Source: Alphaproteobacteria bacterium (GTDB taxonomy: Bacteria > Pseudomonadota > Alphaproteobacteria > Caulobacterales > Hyphomonadaceae). From it: a DNA stretch of 64,000 nucleotides. Within the stretch, counting starts at the first letter, position 1. Each line of letters opens with the position of its first letter. Positions 1,443 to 27,422 of the stretch are shown one piece after another. The notes under the pieces were generated by a model, which saw nothing but the letters and a program-made list of their open reading frames with translations, did no database searches and was not told the origin of the DNA. Location of the stretch: contig JAGWYJ010000002.1 of the NCBI GenBank assembly GCA_018969425.1, positions 62,001 through 126,000 of the forward strand, given 5' to 3'. The position numbers and the translations under genes were made by a program.

Positions 1443-3113
1443 ATGACGCAGGACCATTCGCGTTCGGATGGACGGATCGCCACTCGGGGCAATCTTCTGA
1501 CACCGGCCTATCTTTGGTTCGTCGGTCAGAAGAAGGGGAGCGCGTTAGCGCTTGCCGCTGTTCTTGGGGCTATCTCCAATCTGGCCTTCCCCCCGTTCGG
1601 GATCTGGCCGGCGATGGCCATTGGCCTGTCGGGTCTGATTTGGCTTCTCGACGGCGCATTATTTGAGAAACGTGTTCGATCAGCCGTGTTCGCCCGGGTG
1701 TTTTCGTTCGGTTTCGTCTACTTTTTGATTGGCCTGCACTGGGTGGCGTCCGCGTTCCTGGTTGATCCGGAGGCGCATCTCGCGCTGGTATGGCTTCCCC
1801 TGATCGTTTTGCCGGCGGGTCTTAGCCTGATCCTCGCCGTCGTGATGTCGATAGGCTTTCGTTTCTGGAGCGATGGCCCTGGGCGCCTGGTGACATTCAC
1901 GCTCGCCCTTGTCTTAGCGGAGTGGATCCGCGGATCATTGTTCGGCGTGGGAGGGTTGCCCTGGAACCTGCCAGGAATGGTCTGGGAGGCAGGGGGAGCG
2001 ATTTCTCAGACTGCGTCGTTATGGGGAATATACGGCTTATCCCTGCTTACGGTTCTGGCGCTCGTTTCGCCAGCGGCGCTCGCCGACGCCCGTCCCCAGG
2101 GTACGACAGCGATGCGAGCGGCGCCTGTTCTTGCAGCAGCTATTGTGTTTGGCGGATTGTGGGGGTGGGGCTCCGGACGTCTCGCTGAGGGGGCGGCCGG
2201 TGTTTCGGGGCCGCTCGTTCGCTTAGTTGAGGTCGGCGTTCCTCAGTCCTGGAAGTATCAGCCCGGGGTAGCTGAGCAGATGGTGAGGCGTTTTAATGAT
2301 CTTACGGGTCCAGATGACGAGGCGGCGGCGGATATCGTGATTTGGCCGGAAGGGGCCTTGCCTTACTACTTGTTTGAGTGGCCAGACGCCCTAGATGCGG
2401 TGACCGCAGGTCTTGGAGACCGTTCTTTAATAGTGGGTCTGGTCCGTCGAGAGGGAAAGAACGGCGACGAGCCGCGCGCCTATAACAGCCTTGCAGTGCT
2501 GAACGCTGACAGTTCGATGCGGGGGCCGCTTGCTCTGTATGACAAGCATATGCTGGTGCCCTTTGGCGAGTTCACTCCCTTTCGCAGCCTCGCGGCGGCG
2601 GCCGGCGTGTCGACGCTTCAGAATCTCGCAGCCAATGGTTTTCATGCAGGGCCGCTGCCCGTTTCGGTCAGGGCGCCGGGCCTTCCGCCCTTTGGGCCCC
2701 TCGTTTGCTACGAGGCAATCTTCCCTGGCCTGTCGCCGGCCGGTACGGATCGGCCAGCTTGGCTGGTGAATATCTCCAACGACAGCTGGTTCGGGGGCGG
2801 GGCGGGCCCTCATCAGCATGCCTCCCAGGCTCGGTATCGCTCCATTGAGGAAGGCTTGCCGATGGCGCGGGTCGCAGCAGGGGGTCACACGGGAATGATT
2901 GACGCGTTTGGTCGTTGGACCAAACGTGGGGAACCAGCGGATCCGGTCCTCTATGGAGAGGACCCTGAGGGGTGGCGGTCCTCGGTTGTCGACGCCCCTA
3001 TTCCCTCGGCGCTCGGGCCGACCCTCTACAGTCGATGGAGGGACAGCCTCTTTGCTGGGATGTGGTTGTCTCTGCTGTTTGCACGGGCTTTTTTGCTAAG
3101 GGCTCGGCGCTGA
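1443..3113 (+). CDS. lnt: Apolipoprotein N-acyltransferase
   Basis: N-terminal multi-TM region plus nitrilase-like domain (WPEGALPYYL, LYDKHMLVPFGEF, FGPLVCYEAIFP, NISNDSWFG). Confidence 0.95.
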   Translation: MTQDHSRSDGRIATRGNLLTPAYLWFVGQKKGSALALAAVLGAISNLAFPPFGIWPAMAIGLSGLIWLLDGALFEKRVRSAVFARVFSFGFVYFLIGLHWVASAFLVDPEAHLALVWLPLIVLPAGLSLILAVVMSIGFRFWSDGPGRLVTFTLALVLAEWIRGSLFGVGGLPWNLPGMVWEAGGAISQTASLWGIYGLSLLTVLALVSPAALADARPQGTTAMRAAPVLAAAIVFGGLWGWGSGRLAEGAAGVSGPLVRLVEVGVPQSWKYQPGVAEQMVRRFNDLTGPDDEAAADIVIWPEGALPYYLFEWPDALDAVTAGLGDRSLIVGLVRREGKNGDEPRAYNSLAVLNADSSMRGPLALYDKHMLVPFGEFTPFRSLAAAAGVSTLQNLAANGFHAGPLPVSVRAPGLPPFGPLVCYEAIFPGLSPAGTDRPAWLVNISNDSWFGGGAGPHQHASQARYRSIEEGLPMARVAAGGHTGMIDAFGRWTKRGEPADPVLYGEDPEGWRSSVVDAPIPSALGPTLYSRWRDSLFAGMWLSLLFARAFLLRARR

Positions 3114-23566: not shown

Positions 23567-24169
23567 TTACTGGGTTTGCGACACGAACAGACTATCGGCG
23601 AACGCCTTCGCCTCATCCTCCGATATGCAGCTCTCCGCCGCATCAATTTGTCGACATTCAAATTCAATGAGATAATCAGCTCCGAACCGAGAGAAGGAAA
23701 GCTGGGCGCTGGCTTCTCCGAGTGTAAAGGCCATGTCAGGGCGGGCGGATCCGTCTGATACCCCGGCGGAATAGGCTTTCTTGGTTCCGTTCACAATCGC
23801 GTCGTACCGGGGTGTCTGGTAGGTTGCAAAGTATCCGTCAGGCGTCGCGACCAGGGCCGGCGGACGGGCGTCCTGAGCCTGAACAATCCCGGAGGGAAGA
23901 AGGACCGGGACCTGAGGAAGACCACCTTGTCCGGTGACGGACTGAATGGTGACCGCCGAGTCGGTTGCAGGGCCTGCAGCCTTCGCCGCTCGCGCCGCCT
24001 CCCAGTCGATTGTCTGGTCCGCCGCCGCTAGAGGACCGGCTGAACCCGCGACCTGGTCCGCAGGCGCTTCCGTCGCGGTCTCTGTCTGCGGTTTGCCGTC
24101 GTCGGGCGCCTTGAGGCAGCCGCCGGTCGCCAAGCCAAGGAGGCAAACGATCAAGGAAGCACGTCTCAT
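23567..24169 (-). CDS. Putative lipoprotein, unknown function
   Basis: Signal peptide and lipobox ATGGC; ATGA overlap with the upstream gene. Confidence 0.75.
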   Translation of the reverse strand: MRRASLIVCLLGLATGGCLKAPDDGKPQTETATEAPADQVAGSAGPLAAADQTIDWEAARAAKAAGPATDSAVTIQSVTGQGGLPQVPVLLPSGIVQAQDARPPALVATPDGYFATYQTPRYDAIVNGTKKAYSAGVSDGSARPDMAFTLGEASAQLSFSRFGADYLIEFECRQIDAAESCISEDEAKAFADSLFVSQTQ

Positions 24170-24786
24170 TTGTCTCCTCCGGGGTGGGCGGTCATTGTGA
24201 CTTCAGCGTACTCGATATCTGGCGACTTCGTGAGTTTTCGCGCGATTTCCCTCATCTCCTTCGCCCCCATAGGCTTTTTCGAAGATGCATCTGGAACGAG
24301 CACAAGCTCGTTTGAATATGTGACCCGGTCCAGCGTCAGTCCGCTCAGATCAGGGCGCTTCGAGCGTAGTTCGAGAAACGCCTTGCGAGCGGCGATCGGG
24401 TTTTTCCAGAACTGGTCGATGATGGGCTTCACCCGAGCGTCATTCTTAAACTTCACGACCATTTCAGGTGAGATCGATAGGTTCGCCGGAGCGCCCTGAT
24501 CTGACGCGATCCCGGGGAGATCAGCGGGTGAGGGGCCTTGCGCGAACACCGGAGAGGGCGAAGGCGGCGCGGGCGAAAGCGCCGCCGGCGCCTCGGCTAC
24601 GGGCCCGGCTTCGGAAAGGCTGAGCTTTTTGTCGTGAGCCGACAGGATCGACCCACCGACGAGCACGCTGATGATCGCGACAGCCGCGGCGGCCGGACCT
24701 ATGACCCCGTTGTCCTGCGCACCTTCACCATCCGGCACCTCAACCCCCTTCGTTCGCATATTGCCGCGCCATGATGGCGGGCTCAC
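24166..24786 (-). CDS. Membrane-anchored protein with S8 propeptide/inhibitor I9-like C-terminal region
   Basis: One TM segment (GPAAAAVAIISVLVGGSIL), Pro-rich spacer, then MVVKFKND...LTLDRVTYSNELVLVPDASS...EMREIARKLTKSPDIEYAEVTM, the pattern of S8 propeptides; ATGA overlap with the S8 protease gene. Confidence 0.65.
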   Translation of the reverse strand: MSPPSWRGNMRTKGVEVPDGEGAQDNGVIGPAAAAVAIISVLVGGSILSAHDKKLSLSEAGPVAEAPAALSPAPPSPSPVFAQGPSPADLPGIASDQGAPANLSISPEMVVKFKNDARVKPIIDQFWKNPIAARKAFLELRSKRPDLSGLTLDRVTYSNELVLVPDASSKKPMGAKEMREIARKLTKSPDIEYAEVTMTAHPGGDK

Positions 24787-27080
24787 TGCATTTGTGCATT
24801 GCCAAGGTTAAGCATAATCCCTCCGCAGGGCCTTGAACACTGGCCAGACTGGCCAGGAATAGGCTGCGACCCGGGATAACTGGAACACGCGCCCGAGCAC
24901 TGAAGGGGCGTTCGAGGGCTGGATGCCGTCAGAAGCCGACTTCTGAGCTCTGAGGGCACGGCTGAAGGATATCTCGCCTTAAGGAGGGCAAGGGCGGCGC
25001 TGACATGCGGCGCAGCCATGGAGGTTCCGTTTTCGTAAGCGTAGAAACACTCCGCCACGCTCACGCCGGGGGAGGCGGGATCATAGCAGTTTCGTGAGAA
25101 CTTGGTGGACAGGATTCCGTCTGGTCGGCCGTCCCCATCGTCGTCTCGCGTCATGTCGCCTCCCGGCGCCATGATGTCGACATCCGCGCCGTAGTTGGAG
25201 TAGGGGGCAAGCATTCCTCTGCCATCTCCAGCAGCGACAGATATGACGTTCTGACACCCTCCGGGTGCGAAATATCGCGTGTCGATTCGAGCGTTGCCAG
25301 CCGCTGCGACGACTATGGATCCGGCTGCGACGGCGTCATTGATGGCGGATTGCATGGACGCCGGACAGGGTTCGAAAAGTCCGATCGAGAGATTGATGAT
25401 ATCCGCCGGATTCTGGTTCCAGACCTCATTACCAAGTCCGTCCCGGGCCGGGACCCGACCCGCCGCCCAGCGAATGGCGTCGTTGATATCCGACAGCCGA
25501 CCGCCGCATCGGCCAAGAGCTCTCACGGGAACGATTGTTACGTCCCACGCTCCGCCGGCCACCCCGTTAGCGTTGTTGGAGGAGGCGAGGCCGATCGTGC
25601 CCGCTACATGGGTTCCGTGGAAGGTATCTCGAGAGGTCGGGTCGCTGGGGTCGCACCGGTCTCCCGGATCATTGGGGTCTGGGTCGCGGCCGTCGCCGTC
25701 ATTACCCATCATGGGATCAGACACCATGTCGAATCCGGGTGCGAGGTTTCGGGAACCGGAGATATCCGGGTGACTCATCTGAATTCCGGTGTCGATGACC
25801 GCGACGGTCACCGATCTAGACCCTGTGGAGCGTGCGCGCGTCCAGAAGCCTGAAAATCCTGCTCCCCCCGGGGATTGTCCTCCCGCTGCTCCCGTATCCT
25901 TGAGGTTCCACTGAAGGCCGAAAAGGGGGTCGTTGGGTACGATCCGCGCGACGGTCGCTGCGCCTGGCTGCGCTGCGTTAGGCCGCTTCAAAAGCTGGTT
26001 AGTAAAAATGAAGTCCTTCTCGACATACTCATAGTCGCCCGTCTCCATGAGAACCTTAACCACACATTCTGTCGCCAGAACCGGATCGGCCTGCAGGGCT
26101 GAACGGGTGGGGTTTTGACGGCACTCGTCCTCCGGACTCTCCTTATTCCTGGCGAACAGTTCGCTCATCTGCGGCACGCTTGCGAGGTCAGCTCCCGGCC
26201 GAAATTGGGTTGGTGAAACCCCGATGACGATCCTCATCTGTCCGCCTTCCTCGGGGACCACCACTCCCGACAGTCCGAGCTCCTCAAGCTTTGAGTATGC
26301 CTGCTCGCGGGCATTCAGCGCCGCGTTTAAGTCAAGCTTGTTGCGGACCGCCAGCTCACGAGGAACAGGCGCTTTGCGATCCAGGTTTTGTCGAGCTATG
26401 CCGTCGCCGATCTGTTGAGCGGTCCGGGTGTTCGCCTTCAAGGTCTCTTCAGCAGACCGACGGGCAAGGCGAACCGTATCTTCCGTGACCTTCACCCCTG
26501 ACTGTCGCGCCGCCTTTTCAAGCGAACGAGATACCGCCTGGTCCTTTCTAAGGACGGCGTCCGGGGCCGGGCGCGACAGGGCCGGCGAAGGGCGACGAAG
26601 CGCCCCCGGAATGTCTGCGGTCCGAGGAGTCGCGTCGCTGGTCGGATCATCCAGAGCAGGGCTCACCGGCTCGACGGCGTCAACCGCCGGGTCCGTTTCC
26701 TCCTGCGCGGCTAGAGCTGGGTCAGCCGCCTCGACATCGAAGATCTCCGGCTCAACCGCCGGTTCAACAAGATCCGTCTTGGGCTTTGCGATAACCGATC
26801 CTATGGCGAAATAGCTCTCAGCCTGCAGCATGTCCTCGAGACTGACTGGTGTGATCTCGACCGCTGGTTCGACTGTTCCTGCAAGGGCTCGCGCCGCCAG
26901 CGGGGAGGTCTTAAGGGGGTCAGGCGCGGACGGTCCGCCGCCGCCCCCAGACACCTGATCGCCGACCTGCCGGGCCAGTTCAGCAAGCTGGTCGATGCGC
27001 GTCTGCGCAGCTTCACAACCTGCCGTGAGAGACGCCAATGCTAGCGTGACCAAAGCTCCCAAACGCACGCCGTTCGACAT
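24783..27080 (-). CDS. S8 (subtilisin-like) serine protease, putative lipoprotein
   Basis: Catalytic blocks VAVIDTGIQMSHPD, HGTHVAGTIGLA, NGTSMAAPHVSAALALLKA; lipobox SLTAGC; start refined to ATG 27080. Confidence 0.93.
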   Translation of the reverse strand: MSNGVRLGALVTLALASLTAGCEAAQTRIDQLAELARQVGDQVSGGGGGPSAPDPLKTSPLAARALAGTVEPAVEITPVSLEDMLQAESYFAIGSVIAKPKTDLVEPAVEPEIFDVEAADPALAAQEETDPAVDAVEPVSPALDDPTSDATPRTADIPGALRRPSPALSRPAPDAVLRKDQAVSRSLEKAARQSGVKVTEDTVRLARRSAEETLKANTRTAQQIGDGIARQNLDRKAPVPRELAVRNKLDLNAALNAREQAYSKLEELGLSGVVVPEEGGQMRIVIGVSPTQFRPGADLASVPQMSELFARNKESPEDECRQNPTRSALQADPVLATECVVKVLMETGDYEYVEKDFIFTNQLLKRPNAAQPGAATVARIVPNDPLFGLQWNLKDTGAAGGQSPGGAGFSGFWTRARSTGSRSVTVAVIDTGIQMSHPDISGSRNLAPGFDMVSDPMMGNDGDGRDPDPNDPGDRCDPSDPTSRDTFHGTHVAGTIGLASSNNANGVAGGAWDVTIVPVRALGRCGGRLSDINDAIRWAAGRVPARDGLGNEVWNQNPADIINLSIGLFEPCPASMQSAINDAVAAGSIVVAAAGNARIDTRYFAPGGCQNVISVAAGDGRGMLAPYSNYGADVDIMAPGGDMTRDDDGDGRPDGILSTKFSRNCYDPASPGVSVAECFYAYENGTSMAAPHVSAALALLKARYPSAVPSELRSRLLTASSPRTPLQCSGACSSYPGSQPIPGQSGQCSRPCGGIMLNLGNAQMQ

Positions 27081-27422
27081 CGAGACCCTCCAGCACGCTC
27101 GGATTATCAAGGTTTCATTTATCACGGCCTCGCTGGGACGCGAACAGGGGTTCTGCTCATCCGCGAGTCTTGGGGAGGCGCTAGCCAGCTTTCCTTTGGG
27201 GGACCTCTGGCGGCCTGATCAGGCCAAATGTTCTAATGAAATTAACGGTCTGTTTTGTGTTTGGCTTCGATCCTAGCCGATGTCCGCCGATGCGGCGCCG
27301 ATCGATTGCGTCTGGAATGTCACATTTATCTGCAAAACGTCCAAATCGTGTCGCATTGAGGTCACCGCACTCCCACTTACTGGGAGCAGGGTCGAGTCGG
27401 CCCATGAGCTGGCCCCGACCCT

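Follow-up and report, generated by a model that had tools for sequence, protein, structure and literature searches.

A predicted membrane-tethered, prodomain-like protein encoded beside an S8 lipoprotease may act as its inhibitor in trans

Why would a bacterium encode something like a subtilase prodomain as a separate, membrane-anchored protein, right beside a gene for a subtilase? We asked this of one gene in the window, a 64,000-nucleotide stretch of DNA from a member of the Hyphomonadaceae (Alphaproteobacteria). The best explanation, and in our view a probable one, is that the gene encodes a membrane-tethered, trans-acting inhibitor of the S8 lipoprotease to which it is linked. The gene and its parts are:

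24166 to 24786, minus strand: gene for the standalone prodomain-like protein (206 codons from a GTG at 24786)
24637 to 24693, minus strand: predicted transmembrane helix or signal anchor, residues 32-50 (mean Kyte-Doolittle 2.17)
24475 to 24636, minus strand: spacer rich in Pro and Ala, residues ~51-104, which evolves fastest of all parts
24169 to 24474, minus strand: conserved C-terminal domain (~100 amino acids), residues 105-206
24178 to 24204, minus strand: end of the C-terminal strand and tail, E195-G203 (EVTMTAHPG)

The encoded sequence agrees with the one quoted in the first-pass annotation. (There is an alternative start, ATG 24759, which gives MRTKG...) The gene overlaps the stop of the S8 gene upstream by 4 nucleotides and the next lipoprotein gene downstream by another 4, so the arrangement is operon-like. 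The protein has a short N-terminus (only about 20-30 residues ahead of the predicted helix), then the hydrophobic stretch, the spacer, and the conserved domain; the first-pass annotation had described just such a separate gene, with an N-terminal transmembrane helix and a Pro-rich spacer. Nine orthologs have a hydrophobic stretch at the corresponding position. Judging from the sequence, residues 32-50 are more likely to be an uncleaved anchor than a cleaved signal peptide, because the positions that follow are Pro-rich and lack a clear AxA site. Measured against the closest ortholog (L002, 78% identical to the tethered protein), dN/dS was about 0.07 for the C-terminal domain (0.067/0.908), about 0.18 for the spacer (0.308/1.75), and about 0.05 for the S8 protease (0.042/0.90). 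These low ratios indicate that the gene encodes a real protein under purifying selection.

We then considered what the C-terminal domain is. An AlphaFold2 model built with 14 orthologs (pLDDT 83.4, pTM 0.75) has the elements in the order strand-helix-helix-strand-strand-helix-strand, with the final six residues disordered. This order is the topology of subtilase propeptides, according to the paper on SUB1-ProM, a propeptide-like protein of Plasmodium (PMC6993865), and it is the fold that the first-pass annotation had guessed for the last ~100 residues. The topology is also common to ferredoxin-like proteins at large and does not discriminate by itself. Indeed, a Foldseek search with the domain model found no PDB matches at E <= 0.001, and its top matches were other ferredoxin-like proteins. 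Subtilase prodomains (8c4z_A, 9fid_F, and 8u45_A) had middling scores among many ferredoxin-like chains in Foldseek and VIA-align. Within that crowd, 8c4z_A had Z 5.0 and rmsd 4.7 over 83 aligned residues, and 9fid_F had Z 4.8 and rmsd 4.0 over 69.

Sequence profiles discriminate better than fold comparison here. When 24,736 Pfam models were scanned, the Fervidolysin_NPro-like family (PF22148) matched 19 of the 26 members of the tethered family (best E 6.5e-5), and no other Pfam family was matched by more than two members. Three members (L033, L035, and L014) exceed the curated cut-off for PF22148. The copy in the window scores 13.7 bits by itself, below the cut-off of 21; in a six-frame search of its own genome with PF22148, it was the sole match, at a permissive threshold (E 3.3). 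Aligning the family's profile to 21 bona fide Fervidolysin_NPro domains with hhalign gave a probability of 93% (E 3.1e-7, score 39.9). The highest score from 200 column shuffles was 18.4, which is less than half as much, and the reversed profile scored 7.9. As a yardstick, Inhibitor_I9 and NPro, which are two accepted families of subtilase prodomains, align to each other with a probability of 71.7%. The signal is lost if the last 12 alignment columns are deleted (score 15.9), so the claim of homology rests on the C-terminal strand and the tail, with the fold as its second leg. In a profile search of PDB sequences, the BPN' prosegment was the third match and the sole subtilase among five (E 0.23, aligned at YAE....AH). 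(A single-sequence search of the PDB returned arrestins, which we judged to be chance matches.) Overall, it is well supported that the domain belongs to the subtilase-prodomain fold family. The first-pass annotation's term "I9-like" is supported as to the kind of domain, which matches PF22148, but not as to the family name: Inhibitor_I9 (PF05922) matched neither the protein nor any family member, nor the locus of the gene, and a search of 142 alphaproteobacterial genomes with it gave nothing at E <= 0.001.

The presumed partner is encoded immediately upstream:

24783 to 27125, minus strand: S8 (subtilase) lipoprotein protease (Peptidase_S8, E 3.8e-54)
25941 to 26273, minus strand: conserved segment that directly precedes the S8 catalytic domain, a candidate degenerate propeptide of the protease itself

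The catalytic residues D445, H503, N611, and S702 are all intact and are invariant in relatives. The first-pass annotation also proposed that the protease has a propeptide-like segment of its own and that the tethered protein is a second copy in trans. The segment does exist. It is strongly conserved and contains an invariant YVEKD, which has the E-x-D pattern of the residues by which subtilase propeptides cap helices of the enzyme, but it had no match to any prodomain in Pfam, in PDB sequences, or with hhalign. We consider it, on these features, a candidate degenerate propeptide. The "second copy" is a separate gene, as proposed, but no profile comparison showed the protease's segment to be the same domain. 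The standalone gene may thus hold the operon's only recognisable prodomain. We also considered that the tethered gene arose by duplication of the protease's segment, but hhalign gave a probability of 2%, and there is no evidence for that origin. The genome's two other S8 proteases (L016 and L017) are on other contigs and have no such neighbor; we rejected them as partners, and they could still be targets.

That the protease's segment lacks a recognisable prodomain raises the main rival to inhibition, which is that the tethered protein is a foldase: it would help S8 to fold, in trans and at the membrane, with inhibition as a secondary effect. There is precedent for this, as co-expressing the prodomain of the subtilase CspB in trans restores folding of the subtilase domain (PMC3567191). 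But the protease's segment is strongly conserved and lies at the expected site for a propeptide, and a role in folding does not need a permanent anchor. Also, A200, P202, and G203 of the tail are conserved, as would be expected for an inhibitor. Overall, we think that a foldase is rather unlikely.

The tail's conservation is apparent when it is aligned to the BPN' prosegment. In BPN', the propeptide residues E69 and D71 act as caps for two helices on the enzyme's surface; their equivalents in SUB1-ProM are Glu and Asn (PMC6993865). E195 aligns with E69, and A200-G203 align with P4-P1. Across the 26 members, position 195 is always Glu or Asp, and position 197 is Asn or Asp in 20; the copy in the window has E195 but T197. 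At the positions that correspond to P4-P1, the residues are Ala (26/26), His or Gln (23/26), Pro (24/26), and Gly or Ser (26/26).

These features suggest how an inhibitor might work. The tethered protein would be a single-pass protein of the inner membrane with its domain in the periplasm, and this domain would be a standalone Fervidolysin N-pro/I9-like prodomain devoted to the S8 lipoprotease whose gene lies immediately upstream. Acting in trans, it would most likely inhibit S8 as a mimic of the product. Its four-stranded sheet would pack against two surface helices of mature S8, which E195 and residue 197 would cap, and the tail, TA(H/Q)PG, would occupy the substrate cleft, where A200-G203 would take the P4-P1 positions. 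The anchor and the flexible spacer would let the inhibitor hold S8 inactive at the membrane, and its removal or degradation would release the protease. We infer the binding, inhibition, orientation, and release, as well as any link to the M23 hydrolase encoded downstream (see below); what points to inhibition is the kind of prodomain, the conservation of its tail, the shared operon, and SUB1-ProM as a precedent. We modeled the S8 catalytic domain and the prodomain as one chain by reading through an in-frame stop in a relative (L004, with TAG read as Ser). The alignment was shallow (close relatives only) and the S8 part was unfolded in the model (mean pLDDT 46.7, pTM 0.42); the prodomain was folded well, with most 10-residue blocks at 74-94. 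The model is thus silent on docking. Sequence cannot tell the roles of chaperone, inhibitor, and tether apart.

Two more genes complete a four-gene cassette:

23567 to 24169, minus strand: lipoprotein, the third gene of the cassette, with a conserved domain of ~150 amino acids
22403 to 23536, minus strand: M23 (LytM) peptidase lipoprotein, the fourth gene, with its metal-binding motifs, HxGxD and HxH, intact and a Pro-rich spacer

The lipoprotein is always third in the cassette and had no match in Pfam or NCBIfam; it could be an adaptor or a substrate. We surveyed 13 loci from related species and 30 loci from other genomes of the family. On nearly every contig that extends far enough to show it, the order is S8, tethered prodomain, lipoprotein, M23, even where the tethered protein is just 25-30% identical, and the genes that flank the cassette are conserved as well. 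The conserved cassette would also fit a localising tether or adaptor: the domain would position mature S8 near the lipoprotein and M23, and the cassette would be a proteolysis module that controls peptidoglycan hydrolysis. The M23 motifs are intact in all 10 of the proteins tested, and all three neighbors of the tethered gene apparently encode lipoproteins. But the usual effect of such prodomains is to block the active site, and we consider a purely localising role improbable.

In E. coli, an Asp after the lipobox Cys leads to retention in the inner membrane. A loose lipobox scan found Asp at this position in the S8 and M23 lipoproteins of most relatives; the S8 in the window has Glu. If the E. 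coli rule applies here as well, S8 and its presumed inhibitor would sit in the same membrane.

Across the family, the domain's profile matches 88 of 101 genomes, and 79 genomes contain an S8 that matches this operon's protease. In 78 of the 78 genomes that could be tested, no more than 0.5 kb separates the domain from the matching S8 (gap 213-477 bp; in the 79th, the contig ends directly behind S8). The pairing of the tethered domain with one S8 gene is thus well supported, and the linked and tethered form that the first-pass annotation had described is supported. Two divergent S8 paralogs have no tethered-prodomain neighbor. Among 385 genomes of the class, the profile found nothing credible outside the family (only two genomes of the family matched), so we found no natural fusion of the domain to S8. 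(One match outside the family, L050, is a low-complexity protein and was judged to be due to chance.)

In relatives with a gap between the S8 gene and the prodomain gene, this gap contains a stem (GGGGACAT...ATGTCC) that ends just before the Shine-Dalgarno sequence (L003:4452-4536, L004:5939-6020, L008:5861-5945, and five more). Both sides have changed in 5 of the 15 consensus pairs. The stem, which could tune the ratio of inhibitor to protease, is absent from the window, where the two genes overlap.

Not all copies of the domain are linked to S8. There are 16 paralogs away from this S8; among them are the copies from one genus in which this S8 is absent, in all seven of the genomes sampled. 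Where we examined unlinked copies, the layout of transmembrane helix plus domain is kept, and the C-terminal tail is missing from some. (Examples are L060:4685-5260, minus strand; L064:4460-5005, plus strand; L070:4916-5470, minus strand; L067:4779-5330, minus strand; and L068:4554-5153, plus strand. One set of these adjoins an apparent gene for a Rieske protein, and another, from one genus, has degenerate tails.) With these paralogs, and with top Foldseek matches that are unrelated, we asked if this is simply a ferredoxin-like domain with an unrelated partner, which adjoins S8 by operon membership only. This seems very unlikely given the prodomain-specific profile match with its shuffle controls, the conserved tail motif, and the linkage to S8 in every testable genome.

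Separate prodomains also occur in other settings. A survey of 398 genomes of Pseudomonadota with PF22148 found two further arrangements in which they adjoin S8 genes. In another alphaproteobacterium (L097), genes for an ECF sigma factor (2134-2784), a zf-HC2 anti-sigma factor (1480-2130, minus strand), and an S8 protease (221-1495) lie in a row. The C-terminal and presumably periplasmic part of the anti-sigma factor is a Fervidolysin_NPro domain, and the three genes could form a protease-sensing sigma/anti-sigma circuit. In the second arrangement, short ORFs with lipoprotein-like N-termini and a Fervidolysin_NPro domain (L101:1318-1770, plus strand; L100:1474-1812, minus strand) overlap an S8 gene at its start, and this S8 carries an NPro domain of its own. 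These cases make the idea of a tether plus a prodomain more credible and less unique. A broader view, which we put forward tentatively, is that tethered standalone subtilase prodomains are a recurrent and undescribed means by which bacteria control envelope proteases, that they come in three or more architectures (transmembrane-anchored, lipoprotein-like, and anti-sigma-fused), and that the inhibitor described here is part of a conserved module whose periplasmic subtilase, lipoprotein, and M23 peptidoglycan hydrolase act together.

In the open-access literature, we found no paper on a bacterial pair of this kind, and endogenous protein inhibitors of peptidases are reported to be relatively sparse in prokaryotes (PMC6993865). 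An anchored prodomain that is split from its protease, and whose gene has stayed next to that of the same protease throughout the family, would be a simple and testable pair of envelope protease and inhibitor. The anti-sigma fusion suggests how the protease's state of occupancy could be signaled into the cell.

Finally, we compared the tethered protein to known systems. Prodomains of the Fervidolysin N-terminal family (PF22148) have the same topology, and the profile match is strongest at the C-terminal strand, but they are usually fused to the protease's N-terminus instead of being encoded alone. The anti-sigma fusion in L097 is also a membrane-tethered prodomain that adjoins an S8 gene; it differs in having a cytoplasmic zf-HC2 domain and an adjoining ECF sigma gene, neither of which was seen at our locus (no anti-sigma family in Pfam matches the tethered protein). 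Another subtilase prodomain, that of CspB, stays bound and inhibits via its C-terminal P3-P1 residues, also when it is expressed in trans (PMC3567191), but it is soluble and is part of the same polypeptide as its protease. Standalone propeptide-like inhibitors are already known from eukaryotes, and it is the bacterial, tethered form that is new. POIA1, the yeast peptidase B inhibitor IB2, Arabidopsis SPI-1, and TgMIC5 are described as I9-type mimics in the MEROPS classification (PMC6993865). Like the tethered protein, these four have a standalone propeptide fold, and theirs acts on subtilases; all are eukaryotic. To our knowledge, none of them is membrane-tethered or in an operon with its target. 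SUB1-ProM is eukaryotic as well and is found in the parasitophorous vacuole, and the passages that describe it mention no transmembrane anchor; it is a potent inhibitor of SUB1 by measurement, whereas we infer the role of our protein (PMC6993865). What the two share is that each is a standalone protein resembling a subtilisin propeptide, encoded beside subtilase genes.
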